Notes under the pieces: generated by a model | What the model saw: only the letters and a program-made list of their open reading frames with translations | Databases searched by the model: none | What the model was told of the DNA's origin: nothing | Source of the DNA: a bacterium | Lineage (GTDB): Bacteria > Pseudomonadota > Alphaproteobacteria > Rhizobiales > Aestuariivirgaceae | Reading direction: 5' to 3' | Assembly (NCBI GenBank): GCA_022842165.1 | Contig: JALHQC010000011.1 | Location: 1 to 64,000, forward strand | Length of the DNA: 64,000 bases | In this document: in pieces, positions 4,645-47,050 of the stretch | Layout: every line of letters begins with the position of its first letter | How positions within the stretch are numbered: position 1 is the stretch's first letter | Translations under genes and position numbers: made by a program

Positions 4645-6042
4645 ATGCGTTTTTTGATCGGCCTGATCGCCGTGGTTTTGTTGGCGGCCGCACCTTTCGC
4701 GCGCGCCGAGGATGTGGTGCCGCAATCCCGGCTCGACGTGCAGATGTCCTTCGCGCCGGTCGTGCGCAAAACCGCACCCGCCGTCGTCAACGTCTTTGCC
4801 CAGCGCATGGTAGCCAGCCGGGAGAACCGCTATTTCGATGATCCCTTCTTCCGCCGGTTCTTCGGCGATGATGGCACCTTCGGCCGCCCGCGAGAGCGTG
4901 TTCAGAACTCGCTGGGCTCCGGCGTCATCGTCGATCCTGCCGGGATCATCATTACCAACAACCATGTCATCGCCAATGGCACCGACATCAAGGTGGTGCT
5001 GGCGGACCGCCGCGAGTTCGAAGCGCGTGTATTGCTCACCGATCCCCGCACCGACCTAGCGGTCCTCAAGATCGACGTGCCGGACGAGGAACTTCCCGCG
5101 CTCGAACTGGGCGATTCTGACGCGCTCGAAGTTGGCGATCTCGTCCTCGCCATCGGCAATCCCTTCGGCGTGGGGCAGACGGTCACCAGCGGCATCGTCT
5201 CGGCCCTGGCGCGCACCAAGGTGGGCGTCAGCGACTATCAGTTCTTCATCCAGACCGACGCCGCCATCAATCCCGGCAATTCCGGCGGCGCGCTCGTCAG
5301 CATGGCAGGCGAACTCGTCGGCATCAACACGGCGATATTTTCGCGCGGCGGCGGCTCGATCGGCATTGGCTTTGCCATCCCCACCAACATGGTGCGCACC
5401 GTCGTCGCCACCGCCGAGAGCGGCAGCGATGCGATCCGAAGGCCGTGGCTTGGCGTCGACTTGCAGGATGTCACGGCCGATATCGCATCCTCTCTCGGCA
5501 TGGCGCGTCCGGAAGGAGCGCTCATCATCAACCTTCATCCCGAAAGCCCGCTTCTGAAATCGGGCCTGAAGCGCGGCGACGTCATTCTGGCGATCGAAGG
5601 AAAGCCGGTGGAGAGCGCCCAGGAACTGGGCTACCGCGTTGCCACCACGGCGATTGGTTCCACCACCATCATCGAGTACCAGCGCGATGGCGAACGCCGT
5701 GAAACGCAATTGACGATGGTGGCCGCCCCCGAAACCGTGGACCGCAAGGACACCCTCATCGAAGGCCGCAATCCGCTCGCGGGCGCCACGGTAGCAAATC
5801 TTTCACCGGCCGTGGCAGACGAGCTTGGCATACCCTCGTCTCTCAAGGGCGTCGTGGCGCTGAATGTGGAGCAGGGCCCGGCCATGCGTTTCTTCAAGAA
5901 GGGCGACCTGATCCTTGAGGTCAACGGCAACGACATCGACAGCGTTGAAACTCTGACGTCCGTCCTCAAGGCCAACGAGGGTTTCTGGCGCATCACACTC
6001 AGCCGACGTGGGCGCATCCTGAAGCTTGCCGTCGGCGGCTGA
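4645..6042 (+). CDS. HtrA/DegP-family periplasmic serine protease
   Basis: 465 residues from ATG 4645, which has GAGGAG five bases upstream; the ORF track's GTG at 4627 lacks a site. A signal peptide (MRFLIGLIAVVLLAAAPFARA) sends it to the periplasm. The trypsin-like domain has the complete triad: His107 (TNNHVI), Asp137 (DPRTDLAVLKID) and Ser213 (NPGNSGG). Two PDZ domains follow, at about 285-375 and 385-460. Family members degrade or chaperone misfolded envelope proteins. The stop overlaps the rarA start (TGATG), so the two are cotranscribed. Whether it is DegP, DegQ or DegS type cannot be decided; two PDZ domains argue against DegS. Confidence 0.93.
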   Translation: MRFLIGLIAVVLLAAAPFARAEDVVPQSRLDVQMSFAPVVRKTAPAVVNVFAQRMVASRENRYFDDPFFRRFFGDDGTFGRPRERVQNSLGSGVIVDPAGIIITNNHVIANGTDIKVVLADRREFEARVLLTDPRTDLAVLKIDVPDEELPALELGDSDALEVGDLVLAIGNPFGVGQTVTSGIVSALARTKVGVSDYQFFIQTDAAINPGNSGGALVSMAGELVGINTAIFSRGGGSIGIGFAIPTNMVRTVVATAESGSDAIRRPWLGVDLQDVTADIASSLGMARPEGALIINLHPESPLLKSGLKRGDVILAIEGKPVESAQELGYRVATTAIGSTTIIEYQRDGERRETQLTMVAAPETVDRKDTLIEGRNPLAGATVANLSPAVADELGIPSSLKGVVALNVEQGPAMRFFKKGDLILEVNGNDIDSVETLTSVLKANEGFWRITLSRRGRILKLAVGG

Positions 6043-7352
6043 TGTCGAACCTGTTCCAAGCGGCCGGCATGGGGAAGGACGCGCCGCGTCCCCTTGCCGA
6101 CCGCCTGCGCCCGCAGAGGCTGACGGATGTAGTAGGCCAGGATCACCTTGTCGGTGCGGATGGCGTGCTCACCCGCATGCTGGCGGCGGGCCGCATCCCC
6201 TCGATTATCCTGTGGGGTCCGCCTGGCACGGGCAAGACCACCATCGCACGGCTGCTCGCCGGAGAAACCGGCCTTGCTTTCGAGCAGATATCGGCGATCT
6301 TTTCGGGCGTCGCCGATCTGAAGAAGATGTTCGAACAGGCCCGCATCCGCCGCGAGCAGGGCAGGGGGACGCTGCTTTTTGTCGATGAAATCCATCGCTT
6401 CAACAAGTCCCAGCAGGATTCCTTCCTCCCTTATGTGGAAGACGGCACGATCATTTTGGTCGGCGCCACGACCGAGAACCCATCTTTCGAATTGAACGGC
6501 GCGCTATTGTCGCGGGCGCAGGTACTGGTTCTGAACCGGCTGGATGCCGATGCCATGCAGGCCCTGATCCGCCGCGCCGAAGTGTTCGAGCGCCGCACGC
6601 TTCCCGCCGATGAGCCGGCCCGCGATGCCATGATCGGCATGGCCGATGGCGATGGCCGCTATTTTCTCAACATGCTGGAAGAAGTCTTCGCCGCGGTGCC
6701 GGAGGGTGGTGCCCCCCTCGACACGGCAACGCTCGCCCGCACCGTGCAGCAGCGCATGCCGCTATACGACAAGGCGGCGGATGGGCATTACAACCTCATC
6801 TCCGCACTTCATAAATCCGTACGCGGATCAGATCCCGACGCGGCACTTTACTATCTGGCGCGCATGCTGGTAGCGGGTGAAGATCCGCTCTTCATCGCGC
6901 GCCGTCTGGTCCGCATGGCGAACGAGGACATCGGTCTCGCCGATCCCGAGGCTGTAAAACAGGCACTGGCTGCCAAGGACACGTTCGATTTTCTGGGCAG
7001 TCCGGAAGGCGAACTCGCACTCGCCCAGGCGACTGTCTACATCGCGACTGCGCCGAAATCGAATGCGCTCTACACCGCCTTCAAAGCCGCCATGGAGCGC
7101 GCGAAGCAGACTGGCTCGCTGATGCCGCCGAAGATCATCCTCAACGCGCCGACGAAGCTGATGAAGCAGCAGGAATACGGTTCGGGCTATCGCTATGATC
7201 ACGACCAGCCCGATGCCTTCTCCGGCCAGAACTATTTCCCCGATGGCATGGGCCGCGAGCAATACTATCAGCCCGTCGAACGCGGCTTCGAGCGCGAAGT
7301 GAAGCGGCGTCTCGACTACTGGTCGAAGCTCCGTAAGGAACGCGGAGGCTGA
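6042..7352 (+). CDS. rarA: Replication-associated recombination protein A (RarA/MgsA AAA+ ATPase)
   Basis: 436 residues, the normal size. Walker A is GPPGTGKTTIARLL, Walker B is LLFVDEIHRFNKSQQD, and sensor 1 is LVGATTENPSFELN. The C-terminal clamp-loader-like region carries KSVRGSDPDAALYYLARML and the MGREQYYQPVERGFE block. RarA acts at stalled forks and gaps together with SSB. It is translationally coupled to the upstream protease gene. Confidence 0.96.
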   Translation: MSNLFQAAGMGKDAPRPLADRLRPQRLTDVVGQDHLVGADGVLTRMLAAGRIPSIILWGPPGTGKTTIARLLAGETGLAFEQISAIFSGVADLKKMFEQARIRREQGRGTLLFVDEIHRFNKSQQDSFLPYVEDGTIILVGATTENPSFELNGALLSRAQVLVLNRLDADAMQALIRRAEVFERRTLPADEPARDAMIGMADGDGRYFLNMLEEVFAAVPEGGAPLDTATLARTVQQRMPLYDKAADGHYNLISALHKSVRGSDPDAALYYLARMLVAGEDPLFIARRLVRMANEDIGLADPEAVKQALAAKDTFDFLGSPEGELALAQATVYIATAPKSNALYTAFKAAMERAKQTGSLMPPKIILNAPTKLMKQQEYGSGYRYDHDQPDAFSGQNYFPDGMGREQYYQPVERGFEREVKRRLDYWSKLRKERGG

Positions 7353-7455
7353 CAAGTCACTGACGCGGCCTGTCGGCCTCTCATCATCGGCAATCCTGCA
7401 TGGTGCGTGGGCGTTCAAGGGGAACGCCACTGCCAACCGACAGGAGAACCGCACC

Positions 7456-7656
7456 ATGAAGACAATCGCATCTGGCCTTTTGGCCGCTGTCCTCGCCCTT
7501 GCTATCGCAGGCCCGGCAGCCGCGGCCACACACAAGCCCGCCGGTTTCAATGCCGATGCAGGAACTGTGGTCGTCGAACGCCGCAAGAAGCGCGTCAAGG
7601 GCGGTTCCGGCTGCGACGATCCGGGAGATGTGGCCGAACACCCCGAATGCCGGTGA
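7456..7656 (+). CDS. Small secreted protein of unknown function
   Basis: 66 residues with a clear signal peptide (cleavage expected after GPAAAA). The mature part is short and basic (VVVERRKKRVKGGSGCDDPGD) with two cysteines, C-terminal end EHPECR. ATG follows CAGGAGAACCGCACC, a good ribosome-binding site. A hairpin GGCGTTC/GAACGCC lies at 7410-7428 in its leader, and a terminator-like hairpin follows it. I do not recognise the family. Confidence 0.7.
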   Translation: MKTIASGLLAAVLALAIAGPAAAATHKPAGFNADAGTVVVERRKKRVKGGSGCDDPGDVAEHPECR

Positions 7657-42096: not shown

Positions 42097-42894
42097 GTGA
42101 ACATGAACTCCCTCAAACTCGCAGCGAAAATTCTTATCTATGGAACGCTGCTGATAGTTGCAGCGCTGATCCTGTATTGGCTGGTGTTTCACTCGAGATG
42201 GTCGTGGTTTGTTGAATACTTGCCCCTTTTGATCAAAGGCTTGTGGCTCACCATCCTGTTGCTCGTACTGTCAGTCGTATTGGGTGGTTTGCTGGCGATC
42301 CCGATCGGTCTTGTGCAAGTGACTGGTCCGGCACCGCTGGCATGGGCGGCCAAAACCTTCTGCACCGTCATTCGCGGCACACCGTTGCTCGTGCAGCTTT
42401 GGCTGATCTACTACGGGCTGGGTTCGCTGTTCCCGCAGATCGGCATGGCCTATCCGGGCTTCAAAGAAAACTTCATGTGGCTGATCCGGCTGGATGGCTT
42501 CTACTATGCGCTGTTTGCTTTCACCATCAGCTTTGCCGGCTATGAGGGCGAAGTCATGCGCGGCGCTTTCCTCGGCGTGCCGCGCGGCGAGCTTGAAGCC
42601 GCCCGCGCCTTCGGCATGTCGCCATGGAAGGTGCTGACGCGGGTCTGGTTCCCCCGTGCTGTGCGCTTCGTGCTGCCGACGCTCGCGGGTGAAACGGTCC
42701 TGCAGTTGCAGTCGACGCCGCTTGCCTTCACGGTCACGGTAATGGACCTCATGGGCGTCACCTCGAAAATCCGGCAGGACACCTTCCGCATCTTCGAGCC
42801 GCTGATGCTGCTGGCCGTGCTCTATATGTGCCTCACATTCGTCATCGTCTGGGGCTTCAGTTTCGTCGAAAAAATGGTTCCCCAGAAAAGATGA
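42097..42894 (+). CDS. Amino-acid ABC transporter permease (HisM-like)
   Basis: 265 residues from GTG 42097 (GAGGAT seven bases upstream; ATG 42103 possible). EAA loop LEAARAFGMSPWKVLTRVWFPRAVRFVLP and VIRGTPLLVQLWLIYYGL identify HisM/GlnP-type permease. The stop overlaps the M20 gene start by four bases. Confidence 0.92.
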   Translation: MNMNSLKLAAKILIYGTLLIVAALILYWLVFHSRWSWFVEYLPLLIKGLWLTILLLVLSVVLGGLLAIPIGLVQVTGPAPLAWAAKTFCTVIRGTPLLVQLWLIYYGLGSLFPQIGMAYPGFKENFMWLIRLDGFYYALFAFTISFAGYEGEVMRGAFLGVPRGELEAARAFGMSPWKVLTRVWFPRAVRFVLPTLAGETVLQLQSTPLAFTVTVMDLMGVTSKIRQDTFRIFEPLMLLAVLYMCLTFVIVWGFSFVEKMVPQKR

Positions 42895-44057
42895 TCGAAG
42901 ATATTCTGCTGAAGCACCGTGCGGAACTGACCTCCATCCGCCACGATCTCCACGCGCATCCCGAAATGCTGTTCGAGGAGGTGAGAACCGCCGCCATCGT
43001 GGCGAAGGAGCTCGAACGCCTCGGCTTCAAGGTCACTTCAGGCATCGCGAAAACCGGTGTCGTCGGTACACTGACGAATGGCTCGTCCTCGCGCACCATC
43101 GGCATCCGCGCCGATATGGACGCGCTTCCGATCCACGAGCAGACGAACCTGCCCTATGCCTCGAAATACCCCGGCAAGATGCACGCCTGCGGGCATGATG
43201 GCCACACCACCATGCTGCTGGGCCTCGCGCGCTATCTTGCAGAGACGAAAAACTTCAACGGCACGGTGCACCTGATCTTCCAGCCATCCGAGGAAGACGA
43301 GGGCGGCGCATTGCGCATGATCGAGGATGGCCTCTTCAAGCGTTTCCCCTGCGATGCCGTCTACGCACTTCACAACTATCCGGGCGAACCCGCGGGCCAG
43401 ATCATGGTCAGGCCCGGCCCCATCACCGCGGCAGTCGATATCGTCGGCATCACCATTCATGGCGTCGGCGGCCATGGCGCCATTCCGCAGAAGTCCGTCG
43501 ATCCCATCGTCGCCGCCTCGAGCCTGGTGATGGCGCTGCAGACCATCATCTCGCGCAACCTGCCGCCGCTCGATCCCGCCGTCCTGACGGTCGGCGCCTT
43601 CAACGCAGGCTCGCTCGGCACCATCATTCCCGCAGAAGCAAAACTGGTCGTCGGCGTCCGCACCTGCACGAAGGATATCCGCGAACTCGTCCTCGGCCGC
43701 ATCCGCGATCTCGCAACCCTGCACGCCAAATCCTTCGGCTGCACCGCCGAACTGAAGGTCGGCGACGGCAGCTGGAGCTATCCCGCCGGCTCGAACACCG
43801 CCGCCGAAGCGGCCCTCGTGCGTGAAGTGGCCCTCGAGATGGGGCAGGACCCCGTGCACGTCGACATCAAGGGTCCCTTCATGTTCTCGGAGGATTTCTC
43901 CTACATGCAGGAACTCGTCCCCTCATGCTATTTCTGCGTGGGCGCGGGGCCGGGCCCCATGCTCCACGATCCGGCCTATAACTTCAACGACGACCTGCTC
44001 GTGCAAGGCCCCGCCATCTGGGCGCGGATTGTGGAGAAGGCGCTGCCTCAGGCATAA
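42891..44057 (+). CDS. M20-family metallo-amidohydrolase (hippurate hydrolase/N-acyl-amino-acid deacylase-like)
   Basis: 388 residues from ATG 42891, coupled (ATGA) to the permease. Metal site: MHACGHDGHTTMLLGLA (Cys/His), FQPSEEDEGGA (Glu), a lid-domain His in IHGVGGHGAIPQKSVDPI and a late His/Glu region. It probably removes an acyl group from an N-acylated amino acid brought in by the linked transporter. Its end overlaps the convergent SerC-SerA fusion gene by ten bases. Confidence 0.9.
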   Translation: MIEDILLKHRAELTSIRHDLHAHPEMLFEEVRTAAIVAKELERLGFKVTSGIAKTGVVGTLTNGSSSRTIGIRADMDALPIHEQTNLPYASKYPGKMHACGHDGHTTMLLGLARYLAETKNFNGTVHLIFQPSEEDEGGALRMIEDGLFKRFPCDAVYALHNYPGEPAGQIMVRPGPITAAVDIVGITIHGVGGHGAIPQKSVDPIVAASSLVMALQTIISRNLPPLDPAVLTVGAFNAGSLGTIIPAEAKLVVGVRTCTKDIRELVLGRIRDLATLHAKSFGCTAELKVGDGSWSYPAGSNTAAEAALVREVALEMGQDPVHVDIKGPFMFSEDFSYMQELVPSCYFCVGAGPGPMLHDPAYNFNDDLLVQGPAIWARIVEKALPQA

Positions 44058-47026
44058 GGCCCTTCGATGCCGAGCTTCCGCATCAGCGTGGCGTAGGAAT
44101 TGAAATTCTTCACCAGCGTCGCGCCATGCCGCTCGATCAGCATCTGCCGCCGCTCATCCGTGCCCGCGGTTGCCAGCGCCCCCCAGATCGCAGCCATGGC
44201 CTCCACCTGCGTTCGCGCAGCCTCTGTGCTTGCGGCATCTGCCGCAGCCCGGGCAATCGTCTGGCCGGAGCATTTGCCGACACCCGCCACCGTCATCGCT
44301 CCGCCTGACGAATATCCGTCCGGCAGGTCGCCCTTGAGGTTCACCACGTGTCGGTACCGGATCACATCCAGGATCTGATCGACCGCCTGTTTCGCACCCT
44401 CCACACGGCTGACGTGCTCGGTATCCGCCGCCGCATGCGGCAACAGTTCGACACGGCCTGGATATTTCTCGTGCAGCGGCAGATAGGGCGCCATCGGCCC
44501 GCTGATCGCACCGGTCTCGGCGTTGACAAAGATGTCGGCGTCGATTGCCGCATGCCGCACCTTGCCCGTAGCCATCGCGACATCGAGTGCTGCCGCATCC
44601 ACGCATTCGCCGCGGTCGTAATTGATGACGATGGCGCCATCCCTCATCGCGTTCAGCACGGCCGCATTCACCACATTGGCATTGGCATATTTCCCCGTGG
44701 CGGAGTTGAGCGGCCCCAGCCCCGTGTGAACCGAGATGACGTCCGCACCTCTCGCCGCATCTTCGGGTGCTGCCGCGAAGATGAATCCCTCCGACTCGAT
44801 CCAGTCCCGGTGCCGGGGCCGCGCATGAACGGCAACGCTCATGCCGAAGGCCTGCGCCAGCTTCGCCATCTCGCGCCCGATATTGCCATAGCCGATGATG
44901 GCCATGCGCCTTCCTTCAAGCTTCTCGGTCGGAAAGTCCTTGAGGTTCCGCCCGGTGTCGAACTGCCCGGAAACCGTCAGCCGGTGCAACTCGCCGACGG
45001 CGATGTCCGGCATCACCTTCAGCAGCGCCTTCATGCCCATCTGCGCGGTGGCGCGCGAGTTGAACGAGGGCGTGTTCATCAGTGGCGCAATACCGCCTTC
45101 GCCATTGCCACCGCCCCACGAGGCAGACCCCATGTTGCCGGTGCCAGCCCCGATCCGAACGCCGCCGCATTCGAATACGCTCTCCTTCGGCAGGAAGGTC
45201 GCCGCTGCGATCACGGCGTCATACTGCCCCTTGTCCGTGAGCGGACGGATTTCATCAGGCTTGGACAGATGCGGCTGATAGAAGAAGTGCACCTTGCCCT
45301 TGTCCAGCTTCTTCGTGTCGCCCAGCGGGCCATGGTGGAACACGCCGCCATGCTGTTCGACATGAACCTTCACATCCGAGCAATCGGGCGATCCATCGCT
45401 CCCGCGTTTCAGCCCCACGAAATCGCACACCAGCACCTTGTAGGCGCGGTTCGGATCATCCTTGCGGACGCGTGAGGAAGCCGAAGCCGGGGCAGGGAAG
45501 GTGACACCCGCCGTCGCCAGTTCCTCTTCCAGCACCACGATCTTGGCGCGGTGATAGGCGTATTTGATGTTGTCGAGCAGCGCCAGAATATCTTCGACCG
45601 GGCGGATACCGCCGATCCACGCACGATAGTCGCCCGGCGTTCCGGGAAACGCATTGATGTAGCGCGCCACATCCAGCCCCGCCTCGTGCACGCCATTGGG
45701 ATGGGTGATGCCGTCATAGGCCAGCAGCTGTTTCGAGCGTGCGATGATCCGGGCATGGATCGCCAGATCGCTCACGCCCGCATCCTTCACCTTGAACAGC
45801 GTGACCGCCGCGCCGCGATGCTCGGCACTCGCAACGCCCAGTTCGAGTAGCGTCGAATTGCTCATCCATTCATTGATCGCCGCGCGGTTCGCTTCGGAGC
45901 GCCGGTTCATCTCCGCCACCGGCCCGATTTTCTTCTCAACCCGCAACAGGCCAAAAGTGGTTTCGGCAAAAGCCAGCGTCGAGAACGTATTGATGACGCC
46001 GCCCAGCATCCTGTTCTGTTCCGGGTCATAGATCGGTCCCAGCTTCACGCTGCGCTGGCCGGACAGTGGCATTTTCGGATCGACAGGAGCGGCAAGCTTC
46101 AGTTGCCGCGGAATGGCCCATGAAGGCTTCTTCTGGTTCTCTTCCACCAGCTCCAAGGCCTGTGGCGTGAAGGACACGATGAAATAGCCAGAGATACCGC
46201 CGATCGCCTTCTGGAACGGCATGAACAGGCAGCATCTCGCCATTACCTGCGCGACGATCTCGGGTCCCCACGGCATCGCGCCCAGCATCGAGGTGGCGTC
46301 CAGCACCGCATGATGCTCGTTCGGGTTCCGGTCGATCCAGTCGAGCAGGTTCAGGATGTCGGCCTTCGAATAGGTGGTCGCTCCCGTCGTCTCGTGGCCG
46401 ACGCCGAAGAACACCTTGATCCCCATCCGCTCCAGCATGTCGGAGGAGGGGATCGCACCTTCCGTCTTGGCAAAGTGGATGCGCGCCTCATCGCCATTCC
46501 TTGCAAAGCGCATCATCTCGATGATCTGCGTGCCCCACGACTGGCGGAAGAATCCGGAAGCCTTGGCGAGATCGGACTCAGGTGCCGGCGTATCGACGTA
46601 GACATGCTGCGTGGCATCATTCACCGTCAGGAAATGCAACGCCGCGACCGTAAAGCCCGAATGGCCGCCGCCGAGGCCCACCGCCATGCGGTTCGACTTC
46701 GGGAACTCGAAATAGCGGTGGATCTCCCGCATCATGTCGAGCAGGAACTTGTCCGCCGGATAGCCCCGGTGCATCGAGCGGCCGATTTCGGCTGAGGTGA
46801 AGGCGCCCACGTCGCGGCCCGTATCGTCCAGCTTGCGGTAGTTGGTCTCCAGCCAGTGCTCGAACTCGAACCGGATCATCCGGCTTTCCGCTTCGTCGCG
46901 GGCCATGTCGGTAATCGGCCCCACCCCGAAAAACGGGTTCTGCGTCCGCTGCGGCGGCCCTCCGGCCGTTGCCTGCAATGATGCCTCACGCTCCGCCTTG
47001 AGGCGATCGATCAAATCCTGATGCAC
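44048..47026 (-). CDS. Fusion of SerC-like class-V aminotransferase and SerA-like 2-hydroxyacid dehydrogenase
   Basis: 992 residues in one uninterrupted frame, GTG start with GGGAGG five bases before. Residues about 30-510 resemble phosphoserine/class-V aminotransferases: PLP Asp243 (VLDATSMLG) and Schiff-base Lys273 (FQKAIGGISG). Residues about 528-900 are a D-2-hydroxyacid dehydrogenase: substrate domain (RIGAGTGNMG; LMNTPSFNSRATAQ), Rossmann loop GYGNIG (712-717), catalytic Arg805 (NYDRGECVD), probable Glu837 and His864 (LLPHAAADT). The last 90 residues match nothing I know, and no ACT domain is seen. If active on 3-phosphoglycerate it would hold two consecutive serine-pathway steps in one chain. 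A different hydroxy acid/amino acid pair is possible. Convergent with the transporter-M20 operon. Confidence 0.75.
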   Translation of the reverse strand: MHQDLIDRLKAEREASLQATAGGPPQRTQNPFFGVGPITDMARDEAESRMIRFEFEHWLETNYRKLDDTGRDVGAFTSAEIGRSMHRGYPADKFLLDMMREIHRYFEFPKSNRMAVGLGGGHSGFTVAALHFLTVNDATQHVYVDTPAPESDLAKASGFFRQSWGTQIIEMMRFARNGDEARIHFAKTEGAIPSSDMLERMGIKVFFGVGHETTGATTYSKADILNLLDWIDRNPNEHHAVLDATSMLGAMPWGPEIVAQVMARCCLFMPFQKAIGGISGYFIVSFTPQALELVEENQKKPSWAIPRQLKLAAPVDPKMPLSGQRSVKLGPIYDPEQNRMLGGVINTFSTLAFAETTFGLLRVEKKIGPVAEMNRRSEANRAAINEWMSNSTLLELGVASAEHRGAAVTLFKVKDAGVSDLAIHARIIARSKQLLAYDGITHPNGVHEAGLDVARYINAFPGTPGDYRAWIGGIRPVEDILALLDNIKYAYHRAKIVVLEEELATAGVTFPAPASASSRVRKDDPNRAYKVLVCDFVGLKRGSDGSPDCSDVKVHVEQHGGVFHHGPLGDTKKLDKGKVHFFYQPHLSKPDEIRPLTDKGQYDAVIAAATFLPKESVFECGGVRIGAGTGNMGSASWGGGNGEGGIAPLMNTPSFNSRATAQMGMKALLKVMPDIAVGELHRLTVSGQFDTGRNLKDFPTEKLEGRRMAIIGYGNIGREMAKLAQAFGMSVAVHARPRHRDWIESEGFIFAAAPEDAARGADVISVHTGLGPLNSATGKYANANVVNAAVLNAMRDGAIVINYDRGECVDAAALDVAMATGKVRHAAIDADIFVNAETGAISGPMAPYLPLHEKYPGRVELLPHAAADTEHVSRVEGAKQAVDQILDVIRYRHVVNLKGDLPDGYSSGGAMTVAGVGKCSGQTIARAAADAASTEAARTQVEAMAAIWGALATAGTDERRQMLIERHGATLVKNFNSYATLMRKLGIEGPYA

Positions 47027-47029
47027 TGT

Positions 47030-47050
47030 GTCCTCCCGAGATGAGGGGAC
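47030..47050 (-). promoter_or_regulatory. Hairpin that covers the ribosome-binding site of the SerC-SerA fusion gene
   Basis: Read on the minus strand, GTCCCCTC-ATCTC-GGGAGGAC forms eight pairs with one mismatch and one G-T. It buries the GGGAGG Shine-Dalgarno of the downstream GTG. This may be translational control. Confidence 0.5.

Follow-up and report, generated by a model that had tools for sequence, protein, structure and literature searches.

A fused SerC-type aminotransferase and D-2-hydroxyacid dehydrogenase that may convert L-serine to D-glycerate

A 64,000-nucleotide stretch of contig JALHQC010000011.1 (GenBank assembly GCA_022842165.1, family Aestuariivirgaceae; hereafter, the window) carries a gene whose product joins a SerC-like aminotransferase to a SerA-like dehydrogenase in a single chain. 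Which two reactions does such a protein perform, and in which direction? The original prediction held that the dehydrogenase makes the keto acid that the aminotransferase consumes, and that the protein might be the main serine enzyme or act on a substrate linked to a neighboring transporter operon. That interpretation is partly supported. From sequence and gene-neighborhood comparisons, we give roughly even odds (probability about 0.5) to the fusion being bifunctional and turning L-serine first into hydroxypyruvate and then into D-glycerate.

The gene runs from a GTG start through 992 codons without interruption, and its product consists, in this order, of a SerC-like aminotransferase, a D-2-hydroxyacid dehydrogenase and a helical tail:

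44048 to 47026, minus strand: fusion gene, an open frame of 992 residues, conserved at full length in relatives
45497 to 47026, minus strand: N-terminal half (residues 1-510), a divergent class V (SerC-type) aminotransferase by hhalign, Foldseek and NCBIfam
44297 to 45466, minus strand: C-terminal half (residues 521-910), a divergent D-2-hydroxyacid dehydrogenase and probable NADPH hydroxypyruvate reductase (PF02826, 5e-26; Foldseek; glycerate-kinase linkage of stand-alone forms)
44051 to 44296, minus strand: C-terminal helical tail (residues 911-992, 82 residues) in place of an ACT domain, mostly helical in the AlphaFold2 (AF2) model

The fusion and its domain order, as originally proposed, are borne out by hhalign, Foldseek, PF02826 and the single frame. 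A scan of public genomes retrieved full-length relatives (60-85% identity) in about 25 loci, 31 plasmid records have matches over at least 80% of the length of the fusion query, and most genomes of the host's genus carry the fusion. Among the groups with relatives that agree in length and domain order are Aestuariivirgaceae, Rhizobiaceae, Paracoccaceae, Labrys and Roseibium. Because full-length relatives are found across Alphaproteobacteria, we ruled out a frameshift or misassembly joining two genes, which the prediction had named as a possible flaw. The fusion is a real gene of patchy distribution, present in 3 of 385 sampled genomes of the class (about 1%), this genome included.

To what family does the N-terminal half belong? 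Aligned to a profile of 18 alphaproteobacterial SerC proteins, it gave a probability of 98.6% over 374 columns (hhalign, E 7.5e-16). No Pfam aminotransferase domain matched in any of 22 fusion members, and the only credible NCBIfam matches were two SerC models, each scoring roughly one tenth of its cut-off: TIGR01365 scored 39.9 bits against 448, short of the family threshold, and the phosphoserine transaminase model about 52-55 bits against 477. In a Foldseek comparison with the PDB, the AF2 model of this half (predicted local distance difference test score, pLDDT, 82) resembles class V aminotransferases. Serine:pyruvate and alanine:glyoxylate aminotransferases come top by E-value, and the best listed template-modeling score is that to Mycobacterium tuberculosis SerC (2fyf, 0.78 of target). 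Residues expected to bind pyridoxal phosphate (PLP) and substrate align with those of SerC:

46766 to 46771, minus strand: His86-Arg87, counterpart of the side-chain/phosphate motif GRS-HR of SerC (GRSMHR aligned to GRSHR), invariant in 22 members
46298 to 46300, minus strand: Asp243, the Asp facing the PLP pyridine nitrogen (DATS motif), aligned to Asp172 of the genome's own SerC
46208 to 46210, minus strand: Lys273, the PLP Schiff-base Lys (FQKAIGG), aligned to Lys196 (QKVLGG) of the own SerC
45623 to 45625, minus strand: Arg468, the substrate alpha-carboxylate Arg (YRAWIGG), aligned to Arg349 (GLRIWCG) of the own SerC

The retained Lys273 and Asp243, in agreement with Foldseek, place this half in fold type I, class V. 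By these comparisons its ancestry is SerC-type, but it lies well beyond the SerC family as known.

In the C-terminal half, PF02826 is present in all 24 members searched, and the AF2 model (pLDDT 82.5) matches CtBP, Ser33, PHGDH and further D-2-hydroxyacid dehydrogenases by Foldseek. We compared its residues in an alignment of 64 members of this dehydrogenase family with SerA and six other dehydrogenases of the same genome:

44876 to 44893, minus strand: GYGNIG dinucleotide-binding loop (residues 712-717), glycines 712, 714 and 717 invariant in 64/64
44612 to 44614, minus strand: Arg805, catalytic/substrate Arg, in 64/64
44435 to 44437, minus strand: His864, catalytic His, in 64/64
45203 to 45205, minus strand: Ala608, at the 3-phosphoglycerate-binding Arg (IRS) of SerA, Ala in 64/64 and Arg in the own SerA
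44819 to 44824, minus strand: Ala735-Arg736, at the NAD-selecting Asp of SerA, Arg736 in 64/64 and Asp-Pro in the own SerA

All the catalytic features that had been picked out in the two halves are thus present (K273, D243, GYGNIG, R805 and H864). Two Arg residues of SerA (IRS and GRAG) bind the phosphate of 3-phosphoglycerate; the first is replaced as listed and the second falls in a gap in all 64 members. In D-2-hydroxyacid dehydrogenases, NADPH use is associated with a basic residue that follows the second Rossmann strand, and across this family the position of the NAD-type Asp holds Ala or Ser, followed by the invariant Arg736. The tail, too, is real: it has no Pfam ACT match and its AF2 model is helical, which rules out an ACT-like tail. 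It is present in most fusions and missing from the short stand-alone dehydrogenases of the same family.

These residues bear on whether the fusion serves the phosphorylated serine pathway, with 3-phosphoglycerate dehydrogenase and phosphoserine aminotransferase in one chain. The best NCBIfam matches do belong to phosphoglycerate dehydrogenase and phosphoserine transaminase, though far under cut-off (TIGR01327, the former's model, scores 76 bits against 454 and does not reach threshold), and the HR motif of SerC is kept. We nevertheless consider this role improbable, given the Ala and the gap at the two phosphate-binding Arg positions in 64/64 members, the absent ACT domain, the link of the dehydrogenase to glycerate kinase (below) and the occurrence of the fusion in about 1% of the class genomes sampled. 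Moreover, when the genome was searched for separate copies, a complete serC (378 residues) was found with serA directly downstream (contig C28), and serine synthesis therefore does not need the fusion. With this pair elsewhere, carriage by 3/385 genomes, no phosphoglycerate-site Arg and glycerate-kinase-linked relatives, the proposal that the fusion is the main serine enzyme is not supported.

What, then, does the dehydrogenase reduce? The same half also occurs alone, 53-65% identical to that of the fusion. In a gammaproteobacterial metagenome-assembled genome (L028) and in Fuscibacter (L031), its gene is directly followed by that of a glycerate 2-kinase (DUF4147/MOFRL). In near-identical plasmid operons of Aminobacter and Paracoccus versutus, which also hold a class II aldolase, an aldehyde dehydrogenase and a tripartite ATP-independent periplasmic (TRAP) transporter, the gene after the dehydrogenase is annotated as glycerate kinase. 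On plasmids of Pseudochrobactrum algeriensis and P. sp. XF203, dehydrogenase and glycerate 2-kinase form one open frame of ~819 codons (L082:7998-10457; L136, about 4998-7457), of which the records list the kinase part only; this frame is a Rosetta-stone link. Glycerate kinase thus adjoins the stand-alone dehydrogenase in 4 independent contexts of ~14, by our own estimate far above chance given ~4000 genes per genome. In three contexts (Rhizobium sp. ACO-34A, Agrobacterium larrymoorei and Pseudochrobactrum), the stand-alone gene is preceded by a D-amino-acid-dehydrogenase-like gene, which suggests that the stand-alone dehydrogenase reduces the keto acid from amino-acid deamination. The order at these loci, from amino acid to keto acid, D-hydroxy acid and phosphate, fits serine, hydroxypyruvate, D-glycerate and 2-phosphoglycerate. 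We regard the predicted assignment of the dehydrogenase as a hydroxypyruvate reductase as fairly strong.

The same substrates could be used in the opposite direction, with D-glycerate oxidized to hydroxypyruvate and transaminated to L-serine. Such a non-phosphorylated (glycerate) serine route is described in plants, whose HPR-1 can run toward serine synthesis (PMC5861185). Formation of the amino acid is the usual direction of SerC-type enzymes, and the originally proposed reaction order would fit. This direction seems unlikely to us: the genome already has its complete serC-serA, the replacement of the NAD Asp by Arg suggests NADPH and hence reduction, and the stand-alone forms stand between amino-acid oxidases and glycerate kinase, a catabolic order. 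The idea that the two halves catalyze successive reactions linked by a common keto acid is probably right; the evidence favors serine to glycerate, the reverse of the order first suggested.

A further alternative is another pair of 2-keto acid and D-2-hydroxy acid, such as a longer hydroxy-amino acid or the PdxB-SerC steps of pyridoxal phosphate synthesis. PdxB and then SerC also catalyze consecutive steps, the C-terminal half reaches 62 bits with the PdxB model, the loops of this half are unlike those of the other dehydrogenases compared, and the varied neighbors of the fusion leave the amino substrate open. The fusion to and linkage with glycerate kinase nonetheless point to a three-carbon acid, no Pfam match to the C-terminal dimerization domain of PdxB was found in the fusion, and a patchy distribution is ill-suited to an essential cofactor pathway. 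We rate such a pair as rather doubtful.

Under the favored serine-to-glycerate reading, the N-terminal half would transaminate L-serine with a 2-keto acid as amino acceptor, yielding hydroxypyruvate, and the C-terminal half, preferring NADPH, would reduce this to D-glycerate. A glycerate 2-kinase encoded elsewhere in the genome (C55) would phosphorylate D-glycerate to 2-phosphoglycerate, which enters glycolysis; because the genome has this kinase, the product is usable. Holding both steps in one chain would keep the reactive hydroxypyruvate local, and reduction would pull the transamination; in effect, the fusion would swap the D-amino-acid oxidase module of the stand-alone contexts for an aminotransferase. 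We infer in this way hydroxypyruvate as the shared intermediate, L-serine as the amino substrate, the direction, the cofactor and channeling. The support comes from the glycerate-kinase linkage of the stand-alone forms, the Ala at the 3-phosphoglycerate site in 64/64, the replaced NAD-type Asp, and the genome's own glycerate 2-kinase and separate serC-serA. A catabolic role of the fusion is likely on this evidence.

Several observations weigh on the other side. The fusion is not beside glycerate kinase in any locus examined, its neighbors vary, and several stand-alone contexts have no glycerate kinase. The HR motif makes a phosphorylated substrate of the aminotransferase half possible. In the dehydrogenase family, the position that usually holds Glu, the third member of the catalytic triad, is not conserved: E837 is present in the window protein and variable in the family, while the nearby D831, inside an insertion, is invariant and might stand in for it. 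The genome has other D-2-hydroxyacid dehydrogenases with the look of glyoxylate/hydroxypyruvate reductases, which may make the activity redundant. Most uncertain of all is the substrate of the aminotransferase half.

Can the surroundings of the gene supply it? Two further features were read in the window:

47032 to 47037, minus strand: Shine-Dalgarno GGGAGG, graded good, 5 nucleotides upstream of the GTG of the fusion gene
42828 to 44057, plus strand: M20 amidohydrolase (PF01546) of an ATP-binding cassette (ABC) transporter operon, adjoining the fusion only in close relatives

The M20 and fusion genes had been described as divergent; they are convergent, tail to tail, with ends that overlap by 10 nucleotides, and the fusion therefore lies outside that operon's transcript. 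The transporter-M20 operon faces the fusion only among close relatives and the neighbors differ in other families, which leaves the suggested substrate link weak; the operon is probably not part of the fusion's system. No riboswitch or other RNA element above chance was found for the fusion gene, and no conserved operon among the loci examined. Because the neighbors vary between families, neither the trigger nor the amino substrate can be read from context. Neighboring genes of 770-850 codons in several loci were considered as one family and rejected, being unrelated (ClpA-type AAA, CoA transferase, DUF1631, helicase and others). Among these large neighbors, a dimethylglycine/sarcosine-dehydrogenase-like gene (DAO + FAO_M + GCV_T) lies upstream on the same strand only in Paracoccus aminovorans (L047:6025-8583), a possible link of the fusion to methylated-glycine breakdown.

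How did fused and stand-alone forms arise? A tree of the 64 dehydrogenase domains calls for at least 4 changes between the two states, and its midpoint root falls among stand-alone forms, with the caution that L081 and L082 have long branches. The aminotransferase half was likely, though not provenly, gained once and then lost a few times. Within the family, fused and stand-alone forms are flanked by the same rubrerythrin-VIT gene and are therefore probably orthologous at one locus. Partial copies also occur. The genome G388 carries a second, tandem copy in which the dehydrogenase is lost but the aminotransferase and a tail-like C-terminus remain (L060:2909-4741), and a copy on Ensifer adhaerens p1 (L051:8995-10743; two more records alike) stops 65 residues into the dehydrogenase and looks like a truncated remnant. 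Some genomes of the host's genus (L061, L062 and L068) have a tail-less stand-alone dehydrogenase near seryl-tRNA synthetase and SurE; a domain search identified these neighbors in L061, and gene lengths and order did so in L062 and L068. The record NZ_CP084753.1 (L083, Roseateles sp. XES5), flagged UNVERIFIED_ORG, matches a Shinella plasmid (L049) almost gene for gene, in gene order and dehydrogenase, and is probably a mislabeled Shinella.

If the favored reading is true, the fusion leads from serine to glycerate by a natural bifunctional shortcut, which would help in understanding serine and one-carbon catabolism in alphaproteobacteria and in engineering serine-cycle pathways. A function would also follow for its protein family, whose sole annotation at present is 'NAD(P)-dependent oxidoreductase' and whose aminotransferase half is unseen by Pfam, and for the related stand-alone dehydrogenases. 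More tentatively, we suggest that single chains converting L-serine to D-glycerate make up an undescribed family, comprising a new SerC-derived aminotransferase family and a new hydroxypyruvate-reductase family, with the same reductase module placed behind different amino-acid-deaminating modules. No relevant earlier description of such a SerC-like/dehydrogenase fusion was found in the open literature. The fusion is likely undescribed, yet understandable as a variant of a known pair of aminotransferase and hydroxypyruvate reductase.

How far does it resemble known systems? With SerC (alphaproteobacterial type TIGR01365; 2fyf), the N-terminal half shares a full-length profile alignment, the PLP Lys and Asp, the HR motif and the carboxylate Arg. 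It differs in its score (40 bits against a cut-off of 448), the lack of a Pfam Aminotran_5 match (22 members), ~130 additional residues and its fusion to a dehydrogenase. The C-terminal half has the D-2-hydroxyacid dehydrogenase fold, GxGxxG and catalytic Arg and His in common with SerA, but lacks the 3-phosphoglycerate-site Arg, the NAD Asp, a triad Glu conserved at the usual place and the ACT domain, and has extra WGGG and DAD/GPMxPY segments. With the glyoxylate/hydroxypyruvate reductases GhrA/GhrB and HprA it shares the basic residue after the second Rossmann strand and the glycerate-kinase linkage, whereas it forms a separate, much diverged subfamily with its own motifs and tail, for which the reductase role is predicted. 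The proposed function resembles that of Sga and Hpr of the serine cycle, whose locus tags adjoin each other in Methyloceanibacter and Methylocaldum (PMC6417678) and which perform the same two proposed reactions in the same order and feed glycerate kinase. Sga and Hpr are two separate proteins with an AGT-type aminotransferase, whereas here a single chain carries a SerC-type half.

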